NCBI GenBank assembly: GCA_902826815.1
Contig: CADEGF010000059.1
Coordinates: 1 to 41,621 of the forward strand
Direction of reading: 5' to 3'
From: an uncultured Mycobacteriaceae bacterium
Lineage (GTDB): Bacteria; Actinomycetota; Actinomycetes; Mycobacteriales; Mycobacteriaceae
DNA: 41,621 bases
In this document: positions 4,021 through 23,061 of the stretch, piece by piece
Position numbering within the stretch: the first letter of the stretch is position 1
How the letters are laid out: each line of letters starts with the position of its first letter
Notes under the pieces: generated by a model
Database searches by the model: none
The model's input: only the letters and a program-made list of their open reading frames with translations
Told to the model about the DNA's origin: nothing
Translations under genes and position numbers: made by a program

Positions 4021-5523
4021 ATGACCGCTCCATCGACAAGCCTCTCCCAACAGATGCTGCGACGCCGGCCGGTGATCGGTGCGCCGGTCGCGCACGGCGC
4101 CTCCGACCACCTCAAGCGAAGTATCGGTACCTTCCAACTGACGATGTTCGGCGTCGGCGCCACCGTCGGCACTGGCATCTTCATAGTGCTGCAGCAAGCG
4201 GTACCGACGGCCGGTCCCGCGGTGCTGATCTCATTCGTGATCGCGGGCATCGCCGCGGGGCTTTCCGCCATCTGTTACGCGGAAATGGCGTCCGCCGTGC
4301 CGGTTTCCGGGTCCACCTACTCGTATGCGTACACCACGATGGGCGAAGTCGTGGCGATGGGCGTAGCCGCCTGCCTGCTTCTCGAGTACGGCGTCTCGAT
4401 GTCGGCGACGGCAATCGGCTGGAGCGGCTATCTGAACAAGCTGCTGGACAACCTCTTTGGGGTCACGATCCCGCATTCCCTGGCTGCGGCGCCGTGGGGT
4501 GAGACACCGGGCATCGTCAACCTGCCTGCGATATTGCTCATTGTCATGTGCGCACTGTTGCTGATCCGCGGCGCCAGCGAGTCCGCCACGGTCAATACCG
4601 TGATGGTGGTCATCAAGTTGGGTGTGCTTGCGCTGTTCGTCGCCATCGCGTTCACCGCGTTCACCACCGACCACTTCGCCGGGTTCTGGAACGCGGGCTT
4701 TGCCGGGATCACCGCGGGTGCGGCCACCATCTTCTTCACGTTCATCGGGCTCGACGCCGTCTCCACGGCCGGTGACGAGGTCAAGAATCCACAGAAAACC
4801 ATGCCGCGCGCGATCATCGCCGCGCTGATCGCAGTCACCACCATCTACATCCTGGTGGCGTTCGCCGGGTTGGGCACGCAGGACGCCGAGGCGTTCGGAT
4901 CCGACGAACAAGCCGAGGCGGGCCTATCGGTCATCCTGGAAAATGTTCTCGGCGGCTCGACCTGGGCCAGCACGATCCTCGCCGCCGGTGCGGTGATCTC
5001 AATCTTCTCGGTCACGCTCGTCGTGATGTACGGGCAGACGCGCATCCTGTTCGCGATGGGTCGCGACGGCCTACTTCCGGCGATGTTCGCAAAGGTCAAC
5101 CCGCGCAGCATGACACCGGTGAACAACACGATCATCGTGGCTGCGGTCACCGGCAGCCTGGCGGGGTTCGTCCCACTCGACTATCTGTGGGATCTGGTAT
5201 CGATTGGCACACTCGTCGCCTTCATCACGGTCTCGATCGGTGTGATCATCCTGCGGGTCCGCGAACCCGACCTGCCTCGTGGCTTCAAGGTTCCCGGCTA
5301 TCCGGTGACACCCATTCTGTCCGTCGCCGCCTGCGTATGGATCCTGTACGGCCTGCCACCCGATACCTGGCTGTGGTTCGGCATATGGGTGGTCGCGGTC
5401 CTCAGCTTCTACTTCCTCTGGAGCCGACGTCACAGCGCGCTGAACGACGGCGGCGACGGTCTCATCCCCACCGCCACACCCGACGAGGACGAGGTACTGA
5501 CCCCGCCGAAGGAATCGCCGTGA
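4021..5523 (+). CDS. rocE: Cationic amino-acid permease of the APC superfamily
   Basis: A 500-residue inner-membrane transporter with about 12-14 hydrophobic segments, starting near residue 36. The first helix carries the unwound substrate-binding motif GATVGTGIF (about residues 46-54). The overall sequence resembles the cationic amino-acid transporter (CAT) branch of APC permeases, so arginine or ornithine uptake is likely. It follows rocD by 16 bases with AGGAGG just upstream of the ATG, and its last 4 bases overlap the start of the stress-protein gene. Position and order match Rv2320c (rocE). Substrate is inferred from context, not from residues. Confidence 0.9.
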   Translation: MTAPSTSLSQQMLRRRPVIGAPVAHGASDHLKRSIGTFQLTMFGVGATVGTGIFIVLQQAVPTAGPAVLISFVIAGIAAGLSAICYAEMASAVPVSGSTYSYAYTTMGEVVAMGVAACLLLEYGVSMSATAIGWSGYLNKLLDNLFGVTIPHSLAAAPWGETPGIVNLPAILLIVMCALLLIRGASESATVNTVMVVIKLGVLALFVAIAFTAFTTDHFAGFWNAGFAGITAGAATIFFTFIGLDAVSTAGDEVKNPQKTMPRAIIAALIAVTTIYILVAFAGLGTQDAEAFGSDEQAEAGLSVILENVLGGSTWASTILAAGAVISIFSVTLVVMYGQTRILFAMGRDGLLPAMFAKVNPRSMTPVNNTIIVAAVTGSLAGFVPLDYLWDLVSIGTLVAFITVSIGVIILRVREPDLPRGFKVPGYPVTPILSVAACVWILYGLPPDTWLWFGIWVVAVLSFYFLWSRRHSALNDGGDGLIPTATPDEDEVLTPPKESP

Positions 5524-6401
5524 CGGTCGTCGTCGGCTACATAGCCGGAAAGAGCGGACGATCCGCGCTGCACCTCGGCGTCGAGGCGGCGCAGACTTTG
5601 AAGACCTCGATGGCGGTCGTCACTGTGGTGCCCAAGCCGTGGACCACACCGTCGCCCGCGCGCATCGATGCCGAATACGCCACGTGGGCAGAGCAATTGG
5701 GAGCGGATTCGCACCGCGAGGCGCAAGGATCCCTCGACCAGATCGCCAAGGACGCGGATGTCAGCTTCCACAAGTTCGCAAGCCGAACTGCGGGAGAGGG
5801 CCTTCTTGATGCCGTCGAACAGCTCGGCGCCCAAGTGTTGGTGACAGGCTCCTGCCCGCACGGCTCGCTGGGACAGGTGGTCCTTGGCTCGACCACCGAC
5901 TGGCTTCTGCACTCATCCCCTGTGCCGGTGGCGATCAGCCCCCGTGGGTACCGCGGCGCCAAGTCCGGCAAGCTCGTCCGCGTCACCTGCGCCTACTCGG
6001 GCACGCCGGAGGCCGTACACGTCGTGAAGCGAGTCGCGGCGCTTACCGAGGAACTCGACGTAGAGATGCGGGTCGTCACCTATGCGATCAGGGGCCGCAC
6101 CATGTTCCCGCCCGAAGTTGGTCTGCACGCAGAGGATTCGCTTCTACAGGAGTGGGCGCGTCAACTCCGCGAGATGCTCGCAAAACTGAAGGTCGACGGC
6201 GTCGTCGGCGACGAGGTCGCCCTGAACGTGGTCACGGGTAACGGTTGGGACGAGGCACTCGACGACACCGAATGGGATGACGGCGAACTGCTCGCGCTGG
6301 GAACGACGTCACGGCGCAGCCTCAAGACAGTTTTCCTCGGCTCACACGGCGCGAAGATCATCCGGCACAGCCCCGTACCGGTTCTGGTGCTGCCCAGCTG
6401 A
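5520..6401 (+). CDS. Tandem-domain universal stress protein
   Basis: A 293-residue cytoplasmic protein made of two UspA domains, roughly residues 1-141 and 153-293. Domain 1 opens with TVVVGYIAGKSGRSAL and ends with a GSCPHGSLGQVVLGSTTDW loop of the ATP-binding G-2X-G-9X-G(S/T) type. Domain 2 ends with GTTSRRSLKTVFLGSHGAK, which keeps part of that motif. USPs bind ATP or cyclic nucleotides and often modulate partner transporters or metabolism. It starts at GTG 5520 overlapping the rocE stop (GTGA), so it is the last gene of the roc operon, as I recall for Rv2319c. Confidence 0.88.
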   Translation: MTVVVGYIAGKSGRSALHLGVEAAQTLKTSMAVVTVVPKPWTTPSPARIDAEYATWAEQLGADSHREAQGSLDQIAKDADVSFHKFASRTAGEGLLDAVEQLGAQVLVTGSCPHGSLGQVVLGSTTDWLLHSSPVPVAISPRGYRGAKSGKLVRVTCAYSGTPEAVHVVKRVAALTEELDVEMRVVTYAIRGRTMFPPEVGLHAEDSLLQEWARQLREMLAKLKVDGVVGDEVALNVVTGNGWDEALDDTEWDDGELLALGTTSRRSLKTVFLGSHGAKIIRHSPVPVLVLPS

Positions 6402-6403
6402 TC

Positions 6404-8555
<2,152 letters not shown>

Positions 8556-11963: not shown

Positions 11964-13334
11964 GTGACTTCGCCGAATGGCGCCGCACGCACCGGCTGGA
12001 TCCTGGCCGCGGTGTCGACGGCGCTTTTCTGCGTCCAGATCGACTACTTCGCGATGAACCTGGCGCTGCCGCGAATGGCCGCCGAACTCCACAGCAATGC
12101 GACCGATCTGCAGTGGGTGATCAGCGTCTACATGCTGGCGCTTGGTGCGTTCATGGTCCCGGCGGGCCGAATCGGGGACATCTTCGGGCGCCGACGGGCG
12201 CTGCTGGCAGGCATCGCGTTGTTCGGGCTGGCATCGGCGATGTGCGCCGTCGCGCCGTCGGCCGCGCTGGTGATCGTTTTTCGCGCCGTGCAGGGCCTCG
12301 GAGCGGCCCTGATCTTCCCCGTGTCGGTCAGCGTGTTGACCAACGCCTTTCCCGCAGCGCGCGCAAGCCGCGCGATCGGGGTGGCATACGGCATCGCGGG
12401 GCTGGGGAACGCCGCAGGCCCGTTGGTGGGCGGCCTGCTGACGCAGACGTTGGGCTGGCGGTGGATCTTCTGGCTGTTGGTGCCGCTTGCGTTGGCGGCG
12501 TTCGTGATCACGGCTGTGACAGTGCCCGAGAGTTCGGACGACTCCGTGCCGCGCCGCATCGATGTCACCGGCCTGGCGTTGATCACCGTCGGAATCGGCT
12601 TGTTCACGTTGACATTCGACCGCGCACCGAGCTGGGGCTGGCTGTCGGCGGGCACGATTGTCGCGTTCGTCGGCGCGGTGGCGATTTTGGGGTTCTTCGT
12701 CGTCGTCGAGAACCGGGTGCGGTGGCCGCTGATCGACTTGTCGCTGTTCCGTAACGCGCGCTTCACCATTCTCGTTGTCGCGGGCACCGTCGCGAATATC
12801 GCTTACGCAGTGACCATTTACCTGTCCACTCTGAATCTTCAGCAGGTACGCGGCCTCGACCCGCTGATGGCCGGTTTGGCGTTCCTCGGCCCGTCCATCG
12901 GCGCGGCGCTCGGCGGTCCGCTGTCGGGTCGACTGGCGGCCAAGTACCCATCCGTTCTCATCATGGGACTCGGCTGTGTGGCCGCTGCCGTATCGCTGGC
13001 TGCGCTCGCGGTATCTCGCGGTTGGCTTGTTTACGTAATCGCGCTGACCGCATGCGGTTTCACGATGGGGTTGGTGTACGCGTTCACCACCGTCGCAACC
13101 CAGGCCGTGGTGCGGCCCGAGCGCGCAGGCGAGGCCGCCGGGGTGGCGCTGACGTCGTTGGTGACGCTGGCCGGTGTCGGCGTCGCGGTGTCCGGCACGA
13201 TGCTCGAGGTGCTGCGGAACGAGGGAATGTCCTCGCGCAGCGGAATCGAGGTCATCTTCCTGGCCATCGCCAGCGTGCTGCTGCCCGCCGGAGCGTTGGT
13301 GATGCTGACGGCGCGGTCTCGCGCCTGCGAGTAA
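11964..13334 (+). CDS. MFS drug/metabolite exporter (DHA2, EmrB/QacA type)
   Basis: A 456-residue inner-membrane secondary transporter driven by protons. The motif between helices 2 and 3 is GRIGDIFGRRRALLAG (motif A, about residues 69-84). The DHA-specific motif C occurs as GIAGLGNAAGPLVGG (about 146-160). About 14 hydrophobic segments are visible, as in the QacA/EmrB group. The GTG start at 11964 is preceded by TATCGT and a 6-base gap with no ribosome binding site, so a leaderless mRNA is likely. The next gene, an alcohol dehydrogenase, begins 10 bases after its stop. Substrate unknown. Confidence 0.9.
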   Translation: MTSPNGAARTGWILAAVSTALFCVQIDYFAMNLALPRMAAELHSNATDLQWVISVYMLALGAFMVPAGRIGDIFGRRRALLAGIALFGLASAMCAVAPSAALVIVFRAVQGLGAALIFPVSVSVLTNAFPAARASRAIGVAYGIAGLGNAAGPLVGGLLTQTLGWRWIFWLLVPLALAAFVITAVTVPESSDDSVPRRIDVTGLALITVGIGLFTLTFDRAPSWGWLSAGTIVAFVGAVAILGFFVVVENRVRWPLIDLSLFRNARFTILVVAGTVANIAYAVTIYLSTLNLQQVRGLDPLMAGLAFLGPSIGAALGGPLSGRLAAKYPSVLIMGLGCVAAAVSLAALAVSRGWLVYVIALTACGFTMGLVYAFTTVATQAVVRPERAGEAAGVALTSLVTLAGVGVAVSGTMLEVLRNEGMSSRSGIEVIFLAIASVLLPAGALVMLTARSRACE

Positions 13335-13344
13335 TGTCCCCGAC

Positions 13345-14358
13345 GTGGCAACGATGAGGATCGCCCGCGTGCCCGCGGCGAATGAGAAGTTCGAACTAGT
13401 CGACGTCGAGATTCCGGAGCCTGGCCCTGGACACGTCCGCGTCAAGGTCCACGCCTGCGGCGTCTGCCATTCGGACTCGATCACCGTGGTTGGCGGGTTG
13501 GGCAACTCCTTCCCGCGCGCGCCCGGCCATGAAGTCGCGGGTGTGGTCGACACCGTCGGCGACGGCGTGACGACATGGAAGGCAGGAGATCGCGTCGGGG
13601 TCGGCTGGTTCGGCGGCTGCGACTTCACCTGCGAACCTTGCCGCAGAGGCGATTTCATCTCATGCGAGAACGGCCAGATACCGGGCGTCGCCTACGACGG
13701 CGGATACGCGGAGTACATGGTTGCGCCGGCGGAAGCGCTCGCCCGCATCCCCGACGACCTCTCTGATGTCGACGCCGCCCCGCTGATGTGTGCGGGCATC
13801 ACGACGTTCAACGCCCTGCGGGAGTCCGTCGCACGGCCAGGCGACGTCGTCGCGATCCTCGGCGTCGGCGGCCTCGGCCACCTCGGCATCCAATTCGCGG
13901 CGAGGATGGGCTTCGAAGTGGTTGCCATCGCGCGGGGCACCGACAAGGAGTCGCTGGCGAAAGAGCTTGGTGCACATCACTACATCGATTCCAAAGCCTC
14001 TGACGTTGCCGAGGAGTTGAACAAGCTGGGAGGTGCGCAGGTGGTCCTGGCGACCGTCACCGTCGCCGATGCGATGTCGGTGACGCTGACCGGCCTCAAG
14101 GCACGCGGTCAACTCGTTGTCGTCGGCGCGCCCAGCGATCCGCTGCAGGTGCCCGGAGCGGCAATCATCTTCAAGTCCTCGTCCGTGCAGGGTCACGCCT
14201 CGGGAACATCGCAGGACTCCGAAGACACCCTGCGATTCTCGGCATACACCGGCGTGCGCCCGATGATCGAGACAGTTCCGCTGTCCGAGGTGCAGGCCGC
14301 CTACGACAAGATGATGAGCGGAGCAGCCCGTTTCCGCATGGTTCTGACCATGGACTAA
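13345..14358 (+). CDS. Zinc-dependent alcohol dehydrogenase (MDR superfamily)
   Basis: A 337-residue NAD(P)-dependent medium-chain dehydrogenase. Catalytic zinc ligands are in HACGVCHSDS (Cys near residue 39) and GHEVAG. The structural-zinc lobe is CDFTCEPCRRGDFISC with four cysteines. The Rossmann motif is GVGGLGHLGIQFA (about residues 173-185). It resembles the AdhA/cinnamyl-alcohol branch. The GTG at 13345 is used; an in-frame ATG lies at 13354. A TAATGT -10-like box overlaps the stop of the MFS gene, so the gene may have its own leaderless promoter as well as read-through. A strong bidirectional hairpin ends it. Confidence 0.92.
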   Translation: MATMRIARVPAANEKFELVDVEIPEPGPGHVRVKVHACGVCHSDSITVVGGLGNSFPRAPGHEVAGVVDTVGDGVTTWKAGDRVGVGWFGGCDFTCEPCRRGDFISCENGQIPGVAYDGGYAEYMVAPAEALARIPDDLSDVDAAPLMCAGITTFNALRESVARPGDVVAILGVGGLGHLGIQFAARMGFEVVAIARGTDKESLAKELGAHHYIDSKASDVAEELNKLGGAQVVLATVTVADAMSVTLTGLKARGQLVVVGAPSDPLQVPGAAIIFKSSSVQGHASGTSQDSEDTLRFSAYTGVRPMIETVPLSEVQAAYDKMMSGAARFRMVLTMD

Positions 14359-14381
14359 TTTGCTGCGGCGAAGCACGGAAA

Positions 14382-14419
14382 GGAACGGCGCTCACCCGGT
14401 GGGGGGTGAGCGCCGTTCC
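14382..14419. terminator. Bidirectional hairpin terminator between convergent genes
   Basis: Perfect 16-base arms (14382-14397 and 14404-14419, GGAACGGCGCTCACCC and its complement) enclose a 6-base loop. On the plus strand it is followed by GTTTTCC, an intrinsic-terminator tail. It separates the alcohol dehydrogenase from the last Asn/Gly-rich gene coming from the other side, and can serve both. Confidence 0.85.
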
Positions 14420-14432
14420 GTTTTCCAACCGG

Positions 14433-15434
14433 TTAGTTTTCGTTGGTGGTGTTGCCGCCACCGTTGGTGTTGTTGTTGCTGCCGCCGTTGCCGGTGTGGT
14501 TGGTGCTGTTGCTGCCGGCGTCCTCCGATCGGTTCGTCTTCGACGGACTCTGAGCGACGTTCTGACCGGCATTGCCGGTCGTCGTGGTGCGAGCGTTGGC
14601 TGAACCCGCGGTGCCAGCGGTGGCGCCGGCGTTGACGGTGGTATTACCGGATTGCTGGTTGGTTTGCGTGATGTTGCCGATGGAGTCCGCGAGTGAGGTC
14701 GACTGCTGTCCATTGGCCGCGGTGACATTAGTTGCGCCCGTCGTCTGCGACTGGGTCAGCTGATTGAGCGTCCCGTTGGTTTGGGTTCCCGCCGTGCCGT
14801 TAGCAGTGCCGCCTGTATTGGTGACCGCGCCGAGGCCCGTGTTGCACAGGCCGCAGACCACTGCATTCACCGGTATGGCAATGCCCACATTGACCGGGGC
14901 CGCTATCGGTGCCTGGGCGCCGATATTGAAGCCGCCGACACCCAGAGCCGCTCCCGCACCGACGTTGGCGGAAATCGAGGTTGCCGGGTTGAGGCCCGCG
15001 GTCAGTCCGACATTGCTGCCGTTGGCCACGGTGATCGGTAGCGCGATCGCGGTGCTGAAGCCGCCGACGCCCGCTGTCGCGCCCAGGTTGGCCGAGATGC
15101 CGCCGATGACCGGGTTGAGAACTCCCAGGCCCAACTGGTTGTTGATGCTGTTGCCCGAGGCCCAGGTCGACTGGTTCGTGTTGCCGTTACCGTGCACTCC
15201 TCCTATGTACTGATTGTTGTTGTTGTAGTTGTTGTTGCCGTTGCCGTTGCCGTTGCCGGAGAACGTGCCGTTACCACTGCCGTTCCCGCTGAGCGGGCCG
15301 TTCAGCAACCCGAACCAGTCGGCCTGCGCGGTGGGCGCAGCGATGGCGGCCAGCGCACCGAACCCGATGGCGACGGCACCGAGGGTGAGCGTGCGATTTC
15401 GCTTCACGGACTGTGACCTGCGATGAGTACCCAT
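14433..15434 (-). CDS. Exported Asn/Gly-rich repeat protein, copy 1 of 4 (last in cluster)
   Basis: A 333-residue protein of unknown function. A signal peptide (MGTHRRSQSVKRNRTLTLGA onward) is cut near AQA/DW at residue 38. After it comes a GNG/NNN-rich stretch (50-75), then the block GNGNTNQSTWASGNSINNQL (82-101) shared by all four proteins of the cluster. A hydrophobic Gly/Ala/Val part with regular alternation (107-192) may form beta strands, followed by a Cys194/Cys197 pair and a Thr/Asn/Gln-rich tail. No PE or PPE domain is present. It is closest to the next gene (copy 2), even at DNA level around the shared block. AGGAGCTCA precedes the ATG, as in copies 2 and 3. Cell-surface, structural or self-assembling roles are guesses. 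Confidence 0.82.
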   Translation of the reverse strand: MGTHRRSQSVKRNRTLTLGAVAIGFGALAAIAAPTAQADWFGLLNGPLSGNGSGNGTFSGNGNGNGNNNYNNNNQYIGGVHGNGNTNQSTWASGNSINNQLGLGVLNPVIGGISANLGATAGVGGFSTAIALPITVANGSNVGLTAGLNPATSISANVGAGAALGVGGFNIGAQAPIAAPVNVGIAIPVNAVVCGLCNTGLGAVTNTGGTANGTAGTQTNGTLNQLTQSQTTGATNVTAANGQQSTSLADSIGNITQTNQQSGNTTVNAGATAGTAGSANARTTTTGNAGQNVAQSPSKTNRSEDAGSNSTNHTGNGGSNNNTNGGGNTTNEN

Positions 15435-15479
15435 TGTCTGAGCTCCTTAGTTGTCTTTGATCGTGGATTTCGAGGGCCG

Positions 15480-16508
15480 TCAGTCGCCGTTGTTGCGGTT
15501 GGTGGTGTTGCCGCCACCGTTGTTGTTGTTGGTGTCGGTGTTGTTGCCGCTGGTGTTGGCACTGTTCCTGCCGCTGCCCGACTGCGTGTTGCTCTGCGAC
15601 GGGCTTTGAGCAACGTTGCCGCCGGCGTTGGCGGTCGTGTTGACCCGGGTGTTGGCGGCACCCGCAGTGCCGCTCACGGCGCCACCGGTGACGGTGGTAT
15701 CGCCTGCGACCTGGTTGGTCTGCGTGACGTTGCCGTTGGAGTGCGCCGTTGAGCTAGACACCTGTGAGTTCGTTGCGGCAGCGGTGACGGTCCCCTGGCT
15801 CTGGGTTTGCGACGCGCTGTTCAGTGGACCGGCGGTATTGGTCTGTACTCCAGCATTGGCTGTCGCAGATCCACCTGAGTTGGTACAAGCACCGCCGCCC
15901 GTTAGGCATTGAACCATCACAGTGGCGTTTATCGGCACGGCGGCGCCCACGTTGATTGGGATTGCCACCGGTATTTGGACGCCGACATTCGACCCGCCCA
16001 GACCCAGACCCACCGCCGCGCCGATGTTGGCGGACGCCGAGGTTGCCGCGTTGAGCGCCACTGTCCCACCAATGTTGGTGCCGTTGAGAGCGGTTACCGG
16101 TGCGGAGATCGCCGTGCTGAAGCCGCCGATGGACGCCGTCGCCCCCGCGTTGATGGCGATGCCGCCGACCACGGGGTTGAGGAACCCCACGCCCAACTGG
16201 TTGTTGATGGTGTTGCCCGAGGCCCAGGTGGTCTGGTTCACGTTGCCGTTACCGTGCACTCCACCGATGAACTGGTTGTTGTTGTTGTAGTTGTTGTTGC
16301 CGTTTCCATTGCCGTTGTTGTCGAAGAGGTCGTTACCGCTGGCATTGCCGCTGCCGAGCCCGCTGGCCCCTCCGAACCAATCGGCCTGTGCGGCAGGCGC
16401 GATCATGGTGGACAGCGCGCCCAACCCGATGGCTGTTGCGCCGGCGACGGCACCGAAGGCGAGCGTGCGATTCAACTTCCCGCTGTGCGAGTTGCGATGA
16501 GTACCCAT
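15480..16508 (-). CDS. Exported Asn/Gly-rich repeat protein, copy 2 of 4
   Basis: A 342-residue paralogue of copy 1, with the same architecture: signal peptide cut near AQA/DW at residue 42, NGNGNGNNNYNNNNQF (66-80), the shared block GNGNVNQTTWASGNTINNQL (86-105), a beta-like Gly/Ala/Ile region (110-195), Cys201 and Cys208, then a Thr/Ser/Gln/Asn-rich tail ending in GGGNTTNRNNGD. The hydrophobic region aligns with copy 1 without large gaps (for example GATASIGGFSTAI here, GATAGVGGFSTAI there). The spacer to copy 1 is 45 bases and has the same AGGAGCTC ribosome binding site, which indicates gene duplication within an operon. No enzymatic motif is seen. Confidence 0.82.
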   Translation of the reverse strand: MGTHRNSHSGKLNRTLAFGAVAGATAIGLGALSTMIAPAAQADWFGGASGLGSGNASGNDLFDNNGNGNGNNNYNNNNQFIGGVHGNGNVNQTTWASGNTINNQLGVGFLNPVVGGIAINAGATASIGGFSTAISAPVTALNGTNIGGTVALNAATSASANIGAAVGLGLGGSNVGVQIPVAIPINVGAAVPINATVMVQCLTGGGACTNSGGSATANAGVQTNTAGPLNSASQTQSQGTVTAAATNSQVSSSTAHSNGNVTQTNQVAGDTTVTGGAVSGTAGAANTRVNTTANAGGNVAQSPSQSNTQSGSGRNSANTSGNNTDTNNNNGGGNTTNRNNGD

Positions 16509-16553
16509 TTTCCTTGAGCTCCTCTGTTGATGTGACTGTTGTCTTGGGGCTGG

Positions 16554-17567
16554 TCAGTTGCCGTTGTTGGTGTTGCCACCACCGTTGTTGTTGCTGCTGT
16601 TGCTGTTGCTGCCGGTGCTGTTGCTGCTGTTGTTTCCGTTGCCAGACGAGGTGTTGGTGTTCGACGTGTTGTGGGAAACGTTGCCGCCGACCGTGTTCGA
16701 GTTGCTGATGCTGCCGTTGGCCGAACCGCCGGTGCCGCTGGTGGCCTGCCCGTTGACGAGGACGCTGCCACCGGTCTGGGTTGTCGACGTCGTGTTGCCG
16801 TTGGCGGTGGCAGACGACGATGCGATTTGCGTGTTGGTCGCCGTCTGGGTGCTGTCGCCCGTCGTCTGGGTGGCGCTTGCATCGTTGAGGTCGGTATTGG
16901 GCTGGTCTCCTCCGGTGCCTGTGGCAGTTCCGCCACCGCTGCTGCAACTGCCGCCGCCAACCGCGAAGGTGCAGCCACCCTGTGATGAGCTGTTGGTGGC
17001 GGTCGCGTTTCCGTTATTGGTAGGAGACGCGGTTTGCGTCTGGGTGCTGGTATTCGAGCCGGTCGAACCCTGGGCCAGCGCGTCACCGACATTGCCGGCA
17101 CTCGACGTCGCCGTGTTGTTGCCGAGGGTGCTTCCCACGTTGTTGCCGTTGCCCGTGGTGGTGGGCGAGGACGTCGCGGTGCTGGCGCCGCCGGTCGCGG
17201 TCACGTTTCCGGTGTTGGTGGCCGAGCCGCCGGTGACCGGGCTGAGCAGGTTGAGCTGGGTGTTCATGTTGTTGCCCGAACCCCAGGTCGTCTGGGTCGT
17301 GTTGCCGTTGCCGTTCTGGCCTCCGATGAACAGGTTGTTGTCGTTGAGGTTGCCGTTGGCGTTTCCGGTGCCGTTTCCGGCGAGGGTGTCGTTGCCGCTG
17401 GCGTTGCCGCTGCCCGGCCCGGCAATCAGTGCCCACCAATCGGCATGTGCCTCAGGAGCATTCATCGATGACAATGCGCCGAACCCCATCGCCGTCGCCC
17501 CGGCGACCGCGCCGATCGCAAGTGTGCGATTGAGCTTCGCGACTCGTGCTTTACGATGCTTACCCAT
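16554..17567 (-). CDS. Exported Asn/Gly-rich repeat protein, copy 3 of 4
   Basis: A 337-residue paralogue, more diverged. The signal peptide (MGKHRKARVAKLNRTLAIGA onward) is cut near AHA/DW at residue 42. The shared block is GNGNTTQTTWGSGNNMNTQL (86-105). Unlike copies 1 and 2, the middle part is not hydrophobic but Ser/Thr/Asn-rich (TSSPTTTGNGNNVGSTLGNN). A Cys199/Cys208 pair sits at the same relative place. The tail is almost only Asn, Ser, Gly and Thr. Spacing to copy 2 is 45 bases. AAGGAGCTC precedes the ATG. A long open frame on the opposite strand (16558-17607) is a by-product of the repetitive codon use, not a gene. Confidence 0.8.
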   Translation of the reverse strand: MGKHRKARVAKLNRTLAIGAVAGATAMGFGALSSMNAPEAHADWWALIAGPGSGNASGNDTLAGNGTGNANGNLNDNNLFIGGQNGNGNTTQTTWGSGNNMNTQLNLLSPVTGGSATNTGNVTATGGASTATSSPTTTGNGNNVGSTLGNNTATSSAGNVGDALAQGSTGSNTSTQTQTASPTNNGNATATNSSSQGGCTFAVGGGSCSSGGGTATGTGGDQPNTDLNDASATQTTGDSTQTATNTQIASSSATANGNTTSTTQTGGSVLVNGQATSGTGGSANGSISNSNTVGGNVSHNTSNTNTSSGNGNNSSNSTGSNSNSSNNNGGGNTNNGN

Positions 17568-17702
17568 TTTCTTGAGCTCCTTTTTCCTTATTGACTTGTC
17601 CCGCTAGATGGCAGATGTGTTGGTGTTGAACGAATTTCGGTCTATGTGGCCGGCCGGGCGGTCCCGTTGTCGTCACCACCCCGAGTCTCTTCCTGTTCCG
17701 CA

Positions 17703-19085
17703 TCACTCACCCGATTCCGATTCGTCCCCGCCGGGCGGGTCGCTGTCAGGCTGACTCGCGGTTGGACTCCCGCTCGGTGCGGGCTTGTCGATCCCGAGCG
17801 CTTTGTTGACAGCGTCCTTGGTTCGATCGACCGCGTCCTTGACGTGCTTGACGACACTGCTGAGCGGCCGGGGGCGATTGTTGGGGCCAGCCGTGTTCGA
17901 GGCCGCGGCGCTGGCGACACTGGCATTCGTGCCGTCGGCGATGGCATTCCCCTGGTCGACGAGCAACTCCAGGGGCTCGGGAACGGGCATCCCGGGCAAC
18001 CAAGTATTCGTGGCATTCGTGCCCTGGTCGTCGACATCGCCCGAGTTGACGACATCCGGCTCGGGTGCGGGAAGGGCCATCCCGGGAAGCCAGGTGCCCA
18101 GGCGAAGCTGGTCGTTGATGTTGTTCCCGGCGCCCCATGCGGTCTGGGTGGTGTTGCCGTTGCCGTTCGCACCGCCGACCGCACCGGTGCCACCCCCGTC
18201 AGATCCCATCTCGTTGTTGCTGTGGTTGCCGTTGCCGCCCGAGAGGTTGGTGGTGGCGTCGTTATCGCTCGTGTTCTTGCCCCCGAAGGTGAACTGCCCG
18301 TTGAAAATGTTGGTGACGCCTGCCGCGATCTGATTGGTGTTGCCGTTGCCCGTCAGCGAACCGAGGAAGCCCGCGAACCCGCTGCCGCCCGTCCCCGAGT
18401 TGTTGCTGAAATTGCCGTTGAACAGCGACACGTTGGTGACCGCGGTGTTGTTGCTGTAGTTGTCGCCGAACAAGGAGAACTGAGGGTTGAAGATGTTCCC
18501 CGAGAAGAGGGAGATCTGCTGTGTGTTGCCGTTGCCGATCGCGCCGCCGAACATCGTCGTGCCGCCCGACGACCCCGAATTGTTGCTGTAGTTCCCGTTG
18601 CCCACTGCGACGTTGCTGACGGTGGTGTTGTTGCTGTAGTTGTCGCCGTTGACGCTGACCTGCGGATTGAAGATGTTGAACGACAGGATATTGATCTGCG
18701 TGACATTTCCGTTGCCGCTTGCACCCCCGAGTGCGACCGGTCCGAACAATCCGCCGCCGGATGTGCCCTGCGAACTGTGATTCCCCTGTCCGAAGAAGAC
18801 GTCGGCAATGGTCGTGTTGTTGCTCACGTTGCCGCCGGCCCCGAACTGGGGGTTGAAGATGTTGCCTTCGAGAATATTGATCTGAGTCGCGTTGCCGTTC
18901 CCCGAGGGAAGCAGGATCGACAATGCTTCAGCGTCCGGAGCGTTCATGTCGGCCAGAAAGCCGATGCAGAGGGCCGCGCCGCCCACCGCAATCGTGCGAA
19001 CCACCAACGGTTGTTTCGACGACGCCCTGTGTGCATTCGCTTTTTGTCCTGCAGACAGGCCTGTGCCGGAAATGTTTCGGTTCAT
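17703..19085 (-). CDS. Exported 62-residue-repeat Asn-rich protein, copy 4 of 4 (first in cluster)
   Basis: A 460-residue protein of unknown function. The start is set at the ATG at 19085 (MNRNISG); a GTG-type extension to 19133 would overlap the promoter. A signal peptide runs to AEA (residue 54), also preceded by MNAP as in copy 3. GNGN blocks begin at residues 62, 124, 184, 246 and 308, so the repeat is 60-62 residues. Each of the first three units contains NIFNPQ and SNNT at fixed positions. Such Asn/Thr/Gln ladders suggest a beta-solenoid or curli-like fold. The shared block GNGNTTQTAWGAGNNINDQL is at 308-327. The tail has an amphipathic helix (VVKHVKDAVDRTKDAVNKAL) and an acidic, Pro/Ser-rich end. 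It is 135 bases upstream of copy 3. Confidence 0.85.
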   Translation of the reverse strand: MNRNISGTGLSAGQKANAHRASSKQPLVVRTIAVGGAALCIGFLADMNAPDAEALSILLPSGNGNATQINILEGNIFNPQFGAGGNVSNNTTIADVFFGQGNHSSQGTSGGGLFGPVALGGASGNGNVTQINILSFNIFNPQVSVNGDNYSNNTTVSNVAVGNGNYSNNSGSSGGTTMFGGAIGNGNTQQISLFSGNIFNPQFSLFGDNYSNNTAVTNVSLFNGNFSNNSGTGGSGFAGFLGSLTGNGNTNQIAAGVTNIFNGQFTFGGKNTSDNDATTNLSGGNGNHSNNEMGSDGGGTGAVGGANGNGNTTQTAWGAGNNINDQLRLGTWLPGMALPAPEPDVVNSGDVDDQGTNATNTWLPGMPVPEPLELLVDQGNAIADGTNASVASAAASNTAGPNNRPRPLSSVVKHVKDAVDRTKDAVNKALGIDKPAPSGSPTASQPDSDPPGGDESESGE

Positions 19086-19137
19086 CCTCGTCCCACCCTT
19101 CGGATGAAGCTGTGAAAAGGCTAAGTTGCGCAACGCG

Positions 19138-19167
19138 ACTTTAGATCTTTGCTGTTTGATGTGTCAA
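19138..19167 (-). promoter_or_regulatory. Candidate sigA promoter of the Asn/Gly-rich cluster
   Basis: On the minus strand TTGACA (19167-19162), an 18-base spacer and TAAAGT (19143-19138, TANNNT) form a good promoter about 46 bases before the ATG at 19085 allowing for the start site. The inverted repeat TGATG-N7-CATCA (19157-19173) overlaps the -35 box and could be an operator. Confidence 0.6.
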
Positions 19168-19624
19168 GCATCACACGAAGCAACTTAAAAACCGGTCCAT
19201 GCGATATTAGCTAAATCATTGATCCAAAGGTCGCAAAGGCGGCCTCGAGGCGGCAACGAGGCGGCGGCGACTCACTTGACCTGGGTCTATCGCATCTGCC
19301 ATGCTGTGTCGCTATCCAGTTAGCGATGCTTGGTTATTAGCAGATCCGTCAACTGGCTATGTGAGACGCTATAGAGTTTTTTGTCTCACCGGAACATAAT
19401 TGTCGTTTTCGTAATTAGCTCGTTACACGTCTGGTAGTGTGCTACGCCGCGCTTTTCGCGGGCCTCTCAGCTGCCACTCAGGTCCGCTACCCCGAAGGAT
19501 CAAACGCGCAGGTGGCGACATAATTCGCACCCGACCGACGCCGTTCGCGCGGATCTCGACGGCACACCGCCGACGGGCCGTCGGTTCCGTCGAACAAGTC
19601 GCGTTTTGCTTCGAAATACAAAAT
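19168..19624. other. AT-richer intergenic stretch upstream of the Asn/Gly-rich cluster
   Basis: No convincing gene was found here. The stretch is clearly less GC-rich than its surroundings between about 19300 and 19440. It contains the inverted repeats TCGCTA-N6-TAGCGA (19309-19326), GTGAGAC-N15-GTCTCAC (19361-19389) and the palindrome TTAGCTAA (19207-19214). On the minus strand TTGACG followed by TAATAA near 19350-19330 could be a second promoter. A regulatory region or a small RNA is possible; nothing in it decides between them. Confidence 0.4.
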
Positions 19625-19650
19625 GGCGCCCACCCTCGCGGGTGAGCGCC
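19625..19650 (-). terminator. Intrinsic terminator of tuf / str operon
   Basis: On the minus strand GGCGCTCACCC, a 4-base loop and GGGTGGGCGCC pair with one G-T mismatch, followed directly by ATTTTG. It starts 25 bases after the tuf stop codon. The inner stem sequence GGGTGAGCGCC is also found in the 14382-14419 terminator. Confidence 0.85.
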
Positions 19651-19674
19651 ACTCTGGCGTACTAGGTCAGAACG

Positions 19675-20865
<1,191 letters not shown>

Positions 20866-20955
20866 TTCTATGTCCTCCTGGACTGTGTTGGTGCTTGTTG
20901 TAAAGCAGGTTTGATCTTTGCAGTTGTAGTTCGCCGCGGTGGCAACAGGTCAGAA

Positions 20956-23061
<2,106 letters not shown>

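Follow-up and report, generated by a model that had tools for sequence, protein, structure and literature searches.

An operon of environmental mycobacteria with its own promoter, whose main product looks built for fibre stacking and has no detectable sequence kinship to known biofilm fibres

The fibre protein FapC is described as having three imperfect repeats of 38–39 residues, each of which makes up a single cross-beta layer framed by Asn and Gln, and flexible linkers join them; three repeats are reported in 94% of cases (PMC12392863). Curli are described as consisting of contiguous units of ~23 residues with N and Q ladders (PMC10192328). For the rodlin RdlB, disorder in solution, formation of amyloid fibrils and co-operation between two types of protein have been reported (PMC5314377). 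In mycobacteria, the surface fibre MTP (Rv3312A) of M. tuberculosis has been termed curli-like, and the same source, a preprint on M. tuberculosis, reports thioflavin-positive amyloid in biofilm, the molecular identity of which ‘remains to be definitively established’ (PMC13251970). Here we describe, and compare with these systems, a cluster of four consecutive minus-strand genes coding for a protein with five repeat copies (A) and for three Asn/Gly-rich proteins that are paralogues of one another (B1–B3, 14433–17567). It lies in a 41,621-nucleotide stretch of DNA (the window) from an uncultured Mycobacteriaceae bacterium (GenBank assembly GCA_902826815.1, contig CADEGF010000059.1). In our estimate the chances are about even that the cluster is transcribed as a single unit and serves an extracellular structural system (a matrix or fibre), in which A would stack into fibres and B would dock on A. 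What is new is a same-strand A-to-B module that is rare, found in one genus, without a Pfam or NCBIfam match and equipped with a conserved promoter element.

Repeats, shared block and selection

Protein A is built from repeats of ~61 residues, comprising ~44 conserved residues and a variable linker. The unit reads GNGNxxQxxxxx / GNIFNPQxSxxG / xNxSNNxxxTNV / xxxNGNxS and is followed by a Gly/Ser-rich linker of variable length. A first-pass annotation of the window had placed repeat starts at residues 62, 124, 184, 246 and 308 (steps of 62, 60, 62 and 62), which we verified; GNGN occurs additionally at residues 162 and 284. The fixed period of ~62 residues holds in the window’s A, whereas the step in its relatives varies from 57 to 64 residues, and the motif NIFNPQ, said to recur at a fixed place, is exact in repeats 1–3 but reads NIFNGQ in repeat 4 and NNINDQ in repeat 5. 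Excess identity peaks at lags of 60–63 and 12 residues (11 A proteins), and 12 A proteins together hold 44 copies of the pattern N-X4-Q-X6-N-X4-Q, where shuffles give 0.18 on average and 3 at most. Of the 63 columns in an alignment of 13 A repeats, 16 are invariant. The A proteins examined have 4–6 repeats. At the DNA level, a single array of 1.8 copies in gene A (18393–18717) is the only tandem repetition, which makes the repeats chiefly a pattern of the protein.

All four proteins share the block GNGNxxQxxWxxGNxxNxQL, in a single copy per protein (Table 1); when each B protein was shuffled 20,000 times, the block never appeared. A looser form, GxGNxxQx6NxxNxQ, occurs five times in A, compared to at most once in any of 20,000 shuffles (residues 56–345). 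Given the 12-residue sub-period of A, what had been noted as a 20-residue block amounts to two 12-residue units. When the A repeat profile was compared with B3 by hhalign, the two aligned exactly at the last half-repeat of A and the block of B3 (probability 12, E = 0.0023). The central Cys pair that had been ascribed to repeat copies 1–3 of the first protein is not there: the A repeats have no Cys, and the pair sits in the three B proteins (residues 199/208, 201/208 and 194/197). Among 16 B proteins it is found only in these three; five others have a Cys pair near residues 39–50, two have one Cys in the signal region, and six have none. The window’s three B genes form one supported clade, and on this tree B1–B3 are a local expansion.

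The proposal of a four-gene cluster of Asn/Gly-rich exported proteins with a common block thus held. Export is predicted from a basic start, a hydrophobic stretch and an AxA motif in each protein; by regular expression, as had been stated, none has an LPxTG-type anchor or lipobox. An identical ribosome-binding site, AGGAGCTC, precedes genes 2–4, and equal spacers of 45 bases separate genes 2/3 and genes 3/4, again as originally read from the sequence. None of the four proteins has a Pfam match at E ≤ 10, in agreement with the earlier view that there is no PE/PPE domain; the search gave no link to PE_PGRS or another Pfam family. On the same result we rejected membership of PE_PGRS/PE/PPE and of the chaplins, for which we assume that Pfam holds a model. 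A scan of the four proteins against NCBIfam gave only two sub-cutoff matches, both to B3 (E = 0.38 and 3.2), and no known RNA element was found across window positions 13000–21000 at the gathering threshold. Literature searches of limited reach turned up no description of such a module, consistent with the original remark that no characterised system of this kind was known.

To measure selection we used a simple counting method for the ratio of nonsynonymous to synonymous substitution rates (dN/dS). Among three orthologues at the second genomic site described below (the amidase site), dN/dS is 0.28–0.34 for A and 0.09–0.16 for B. Within A, the repeats are more constrained than the C-terminal tail (0.15 versus 0.84 and 0.26 versus 0.47), and the signal region gives 0.65 in one pair and 0.18 in the other. 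Pairs of A genes beside the str operon give 0.35–0.49, with saturated dS, and the window’s own B paralogues give 0.51–0.60. By these values A and B are both maintained, and among orthologues B is held more tightly than A, though it has no confident predicted fold.

Distribution and promoter of the module

The module is present in 14 distinct genomes of one genus, counting that of the window. A protein search found A in five of 148 genus genomes. A profile of B matched 17 of 297, of which seven aligned over the first 34–51 residues (the signal region) only, leaving 10. The A repeat profile matched three of 348 genomes of the order and two of 396 of the phylum (overlapping, small samples), every one of them from this genus. 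The carriers that have a name are M. stellerae, M. agri (whose locus is divided between two contigs), M. moriokaense GAS496, M. tusciae, Mycobacteriaceae bacterium 1482268.1 and two metagenome assemblies, together 8 loci in 7 genomes. B follows A on the same strand in all 14 module genomes, the exception being G108, where A is only a remnant: its last half-repeat alone remains (L072 9186–9524, minus strand), beside an apparently intact B, which suggests that B can outlast A.

At least three chromosomal sites hold the module: it lies next to the str operon in seven genomes, at a second site in six, between what we take to be an amidase-like and a HIT-like gene, and elsewhere in one. Because the flanks differ at the two main sites, the neighbours offer no guilt by association, and we ruled out a functional link to them as evidence. 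The tree of A proteins was mostly unresolved, with no well-supported partner for the window’s A. Viral and plasmid origins were rejected, as there was no relative in viral contigs (66 stretches matched a pattern, none confirmed) or among the plasmids searched.

The claim that the cluster has its own promoter beside the str operon is borne out by a conserved element upstream of A. The four upstream regions at the str site align poorly apart from two blocks. The gene-near block, CTTGACACA-N6-AGCAAAG-N3-TA-N2-GTC, is present at all 13 A loci examined, 64–118 nucleotides (nt) from the start codon in 12 of them and 274 nt in one, the distance in M. agri being rough because its start codon is not fixed. 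Of its 21 specified bases, eight loci match all 21, two match 20, and one each matches 19, 18 and 15, where shuffles reach maxima of 14–16. In the locus with 15 (L073) the element is, by eye, one base shorter. The second block, TAGCACACTACCAGA and GAGCTAATTAC preceded by CCTGAGT...CTGAG (window 19411–19482, minus strand), shows partial conservation among the four str-site loci that were aligned and was not found upstream of the other A genes scanned.

Since the pattern derives from the upstream regions of A, its fit there is by construction, and the independent test is a genome search. Allowing up to three mismatches in 10 module-bearing genomes, we found the A promoter in eight and only two other places. 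The A promoter was missed in G1158, where the element is one base shorter, and in G108, where most of A is lost. A reversed control pattern gave zero matches in the same search. Assuming uniform bases, 0.002, 0.058 and 1.1 chance matches are expected in 65 Mb at up to one, two and three mismatches, respectively; the two extra copies have one and two. It is on this conservation and genome-wide rarity that the promoter claim rests; a promoter scanner was set aside as evidence on its own (one site found, 0.9 expected). Conservation of the spacer suggests a regulator site in addition to that of a sigma factor.

Both extra copies lie upstream of genes for exported proteins. In G145 the copy (L087 7115–7146, minus strand) precedes the gene for a 181-residue Asn-rich protein (6306–6851, minus strand), which has a two-copy motif of the form SGNNINAQFSGFGPNAS, resembling SGNIFNPQFSLFGDNYS of A; a divergent open reading frame (ORF) for a 136-residue Asn-rich exported protein lies at L087 7912–8322 (plus strand). 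In G011 the copy (L088 7371–7402, minus strand) precedes tandem genes for Gly-rich proteins (4202–5530 and 5665–7152, minus strand) that are very similar to each other and both end in FAALIEAFTSFLPF; Pfam gave no match for the one of the two that was searched. The distance from the end of the element to the gene is longer than at A, about 220–265 nt, and the extra copies likely serve these downstream genes. The A-type promoter thus apparently commands a small extracellular-matrix regulon, and this dedicated promoter and regulon are the strongest new evidence for a structural matrix system. The second regulon member was considered as an A homologue: its small E-values in BLAST with filters off were discarded as low-complexity inflation, hhalign gave a probability of 15 (E = 0.0017), and it is present in two of 148 genus genomes, in one of them weakly.

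Table 1. Coordinates of the module’s features in the window.
Feature	Position	Strand	Description
Gene A	17703–19085	−	460-residue exported repeat protein (predicted), putative fibre subunit
Gene B1	16554–17567	−	337-residue Asn/Gly/Ser/Thr-rich protein, predicted exported
Gene B2	15480–16508	−	342-residue Asn/Gly-rich protein, predicted exported
Gene B3	14433–15434	−	333-residue Asn/Gly-rich protein, predicted exported
Promoter element of A, CTTGACACATCAAACAGCAAAGATCTAAAGTC	19137–19168	−	TTGACA, 18-nt spacer with AGCAAAG, then TAAAGT; 83 nt upstream of A start codon
A repeat 1, residues 62–123	18717–18902	−	coordinates derived from ORF start
A repeat 2, residues 124–183	18537–18716	−	
A repeat 3, residues 184–245	18351–18536	−	
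A repeat 4, residues 246–307	18165–18350	−	
A terminal half-repeat, residues 308–327	18105–18164	−	block version common to B proteins
A C-terminal predicted helix, residues 409–429	17799–17861	−	DSSP H409–429 on AlphaFold2 model
Shared block in B1, residues 86–105	17253–17312	−	
Shared block in B2, residues 86–105	16194–16253	−	
Shared block in B3, residues 82–101	15132–15191	−	
Ribosome-binding site of B1	17574–17581	−	sequence reading
Ribosome-binding site of B2	16516–16523	−	sequence reading
Ribosome-binding site of B3	15440–15447	−	sequence reading

The cluster is flanked downstream by an alcohol-dehydrogenase-like gene on the opposite strand (13345–14358), and at 19675–20865 lies what is presumably tuf. 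In M. stellerae the order of the module and the alcohol-dehydrogenase gene is exchanged: there that gene separates tuf from A (L025 6524–10530, compared to window 13345–19085), and its place in the window is on the far side of the B genes.

Predicted folds and competing readings

AlphaFold2 placed strands at equivalent places in every repeat of A (10-residue means up to 86), with low-confidence linkers. The A proteins at the str site have a similar predicted amphipathic helix near the C-terminus, readable in their sequences (residues 409–429 in the window), which could be an anchor. In a Foldseek search of the PDB with the A model, the top match was the curli CsgA fibril and the FapC fibril 9u4u, in which each repeat is a Greek-key cross-beta layer, ranked fourth (E = 4.0; not listed by VIA), neither being significant. 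A fold search of BFVD found nothing at E ≤ 0.001, and the A repeat profile matched no PDB sequence at E ≤ 10; a P1-PDB sequence search gave two matches only, to Piwi (E = 1.5 and 1.6), which we dismissed as chance. The earlier suggestion of a solenoid or amyloid-like fibre stands insofar as A has regular predicted beta repeats, which make a fibre or solenoid plausible for gene A; fibre or amyloid formation itself is what we infer from them, and the reading is not supported for the other three genes.

In our analysis, A most likely serves as a fibre subunit of Fap/curli-like type, with B as an accessory protein of the matrix. Protein A would be exported, and each ~44-residue core would fold into a single beta layer of the stack, shaped as a multi-arc rung and held together by Asn/Gln ladders facing inward, with the Gly/Ser-rich linkers flexible and outside the stack. 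The monomer would then be a solenoid of four to five layers, whose open ends would stack head to tail into a cross-beta fibre, like FapC and CsgA. B, with one 12+12-residue block in a presumably otherwise unordered, nearly uncharged chain rich in Asn, Gly, Thr and Ser, would most likely dock through its block on the terminal half-repeat of A, as a minor subunit or coat.

A doubtful alternative is that A is a monomeric surface beta-solenoid (an adhesin, or a sugar- or ice-binding protein), not a fibre subunit, and that the B proteins are cell-wall linkers or spacers. A shows no obvious conserved binding site of charged or aromatic residues; its invariant positions are the repeat-defining Asn, Gln, Gly and Ser together with a few other residues, and the fold matches are all non-significant.

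We also think it unlikely that A and B are secreted low-complexity proteins that mostly lack order, making a hydrogel-like or hydrophilic coat, and that the AlphaFold2 rungs are a repeat artefact. Several results do point towards disorder. The models of A are unstable and their predicted template modelling score (pTM) is low, and AlphaFold2 is said to over-predict beta-solenoids from repeat sequences (PMC11795689). The B proteins hold one short block each and are not repeat solenoids, and B3, the sole B folded, has a mean predicted local distance difference test score (pLDDT) of 32 and no confident fold. However, the invariant positions of the A repeats are fixed across copies and species and their dN/dS is low (0.15–0.26), unlike free low-complexity drift, and these repeats are imperfect, whereas the bias described for AlphaFold2 concerns perfect ones (PMC11795689). 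A divergent curli, Fap or PE_PGRS system, known in kind and family, is already disfavoured and very improbable: the Asn/Gln ladders and repeats do resemble those described for CsgA and FapC (PMC10192328, PMC12392863), but Pfam and PDB sequences give no match, the curlin spacings QX10Q and NX5Q fall below their shuffle means, the FapC motif is absent, and hhalign of the A repeat profile with E. coli K-12 CsgA gives a probability of 0.1 (E = 0.76).

Returning to A as a fibre subunit, a broader and more speculative proposal, which we hold only tentatively, is that of an actinobacterial functional amyloid unrelated by sequence to curli, Fap and chaplins. The A/B cassette would be mobile by descent, with its own promoter class (AGCAAAG spacer) and a small Asn/Gly-rich exported regulon, whose products may together form an extracellular fibre matrix in some environmental mycobacteria. 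If A forms fibres, these bacteria offer a genetically defined two-component matrix system, whose promoter points the way to a regulator and other matrix genes. Asn/Gln-ladder fibres would then have arisen independently once more, which would help to tell the required features of curli and Fap from the historical ones. The module was found in environmental mycobacteria and its occurrence in M. tuberculosis is not shown here, so it does not answer the amyloid question there.

Comparison with known fibre systems

MTP, likened here by description only, is like the proposed product of the module a mycobacterial surface fibre, as described in PMC13251970. The rodlins and chaplins of Streptomyces are, like A and B, actinobacterial secreted surface proteins, with two co-operating types described (PMC5314377); they belong to aerial hyphae. 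A and B have no match to any Pfam family, and the rodlins were compared by description only. To our knowledge, MTP is a small protein without repeats of the A kind.

Curli are described with solenoid repeats with inward Asn and Gln ladders, as proposed for A, and with a motif common to the major and minor subunits (PMC10192328), much as A and B have a block in common. Like A, they have two short N...Q motifs in succession. The curlin unit, however, is ~23 residues with a QX10Q spacing, whereas A has a step of 12 residues inside a ~61-residue repeat with linkers. In 12 A proteins QX11Q occurs 57 times (7.9 expected), QX10Q twice (shuffle mean 7.9) and NX5Q nine times (shuffle mean 29.2). No CsgG, CsgE or CsgF was recognised by eye among the flanking ORFs, no genome-wide search having been made.

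Fap resembles A in its long imperfect repeats (38–39 residues in FapC, a core of about 44 in A), flexible linkers and conserved Asn/Gln/Gly framework, and resembles the module in having two kinds of exported repeat-bearing protein (PMC12392863). It differs in that FapC is described with three repeats and A has 4–6, that B has one short block instead of three repeats, and that the host is a diderm pseudomonad, not a mycobacterium. FapA, D, E and F were not recognised in the module’s flanks, which were not profile-searched for them. The FapC motif GN-psi-G-psi-N...NqQN, as a regular expression of its published form, is found in none of the 12 A proteins; a looser pattern chosen after seeing the sequences, N[VILF][AS]xxxGN, occurs 31 times in A proteins, against 0.70. 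With the curlin spacings under-represented and the FapC motif absent, A has a motif spacing of its own, and we therefore take it to act like those fibres while belonging to neither family.

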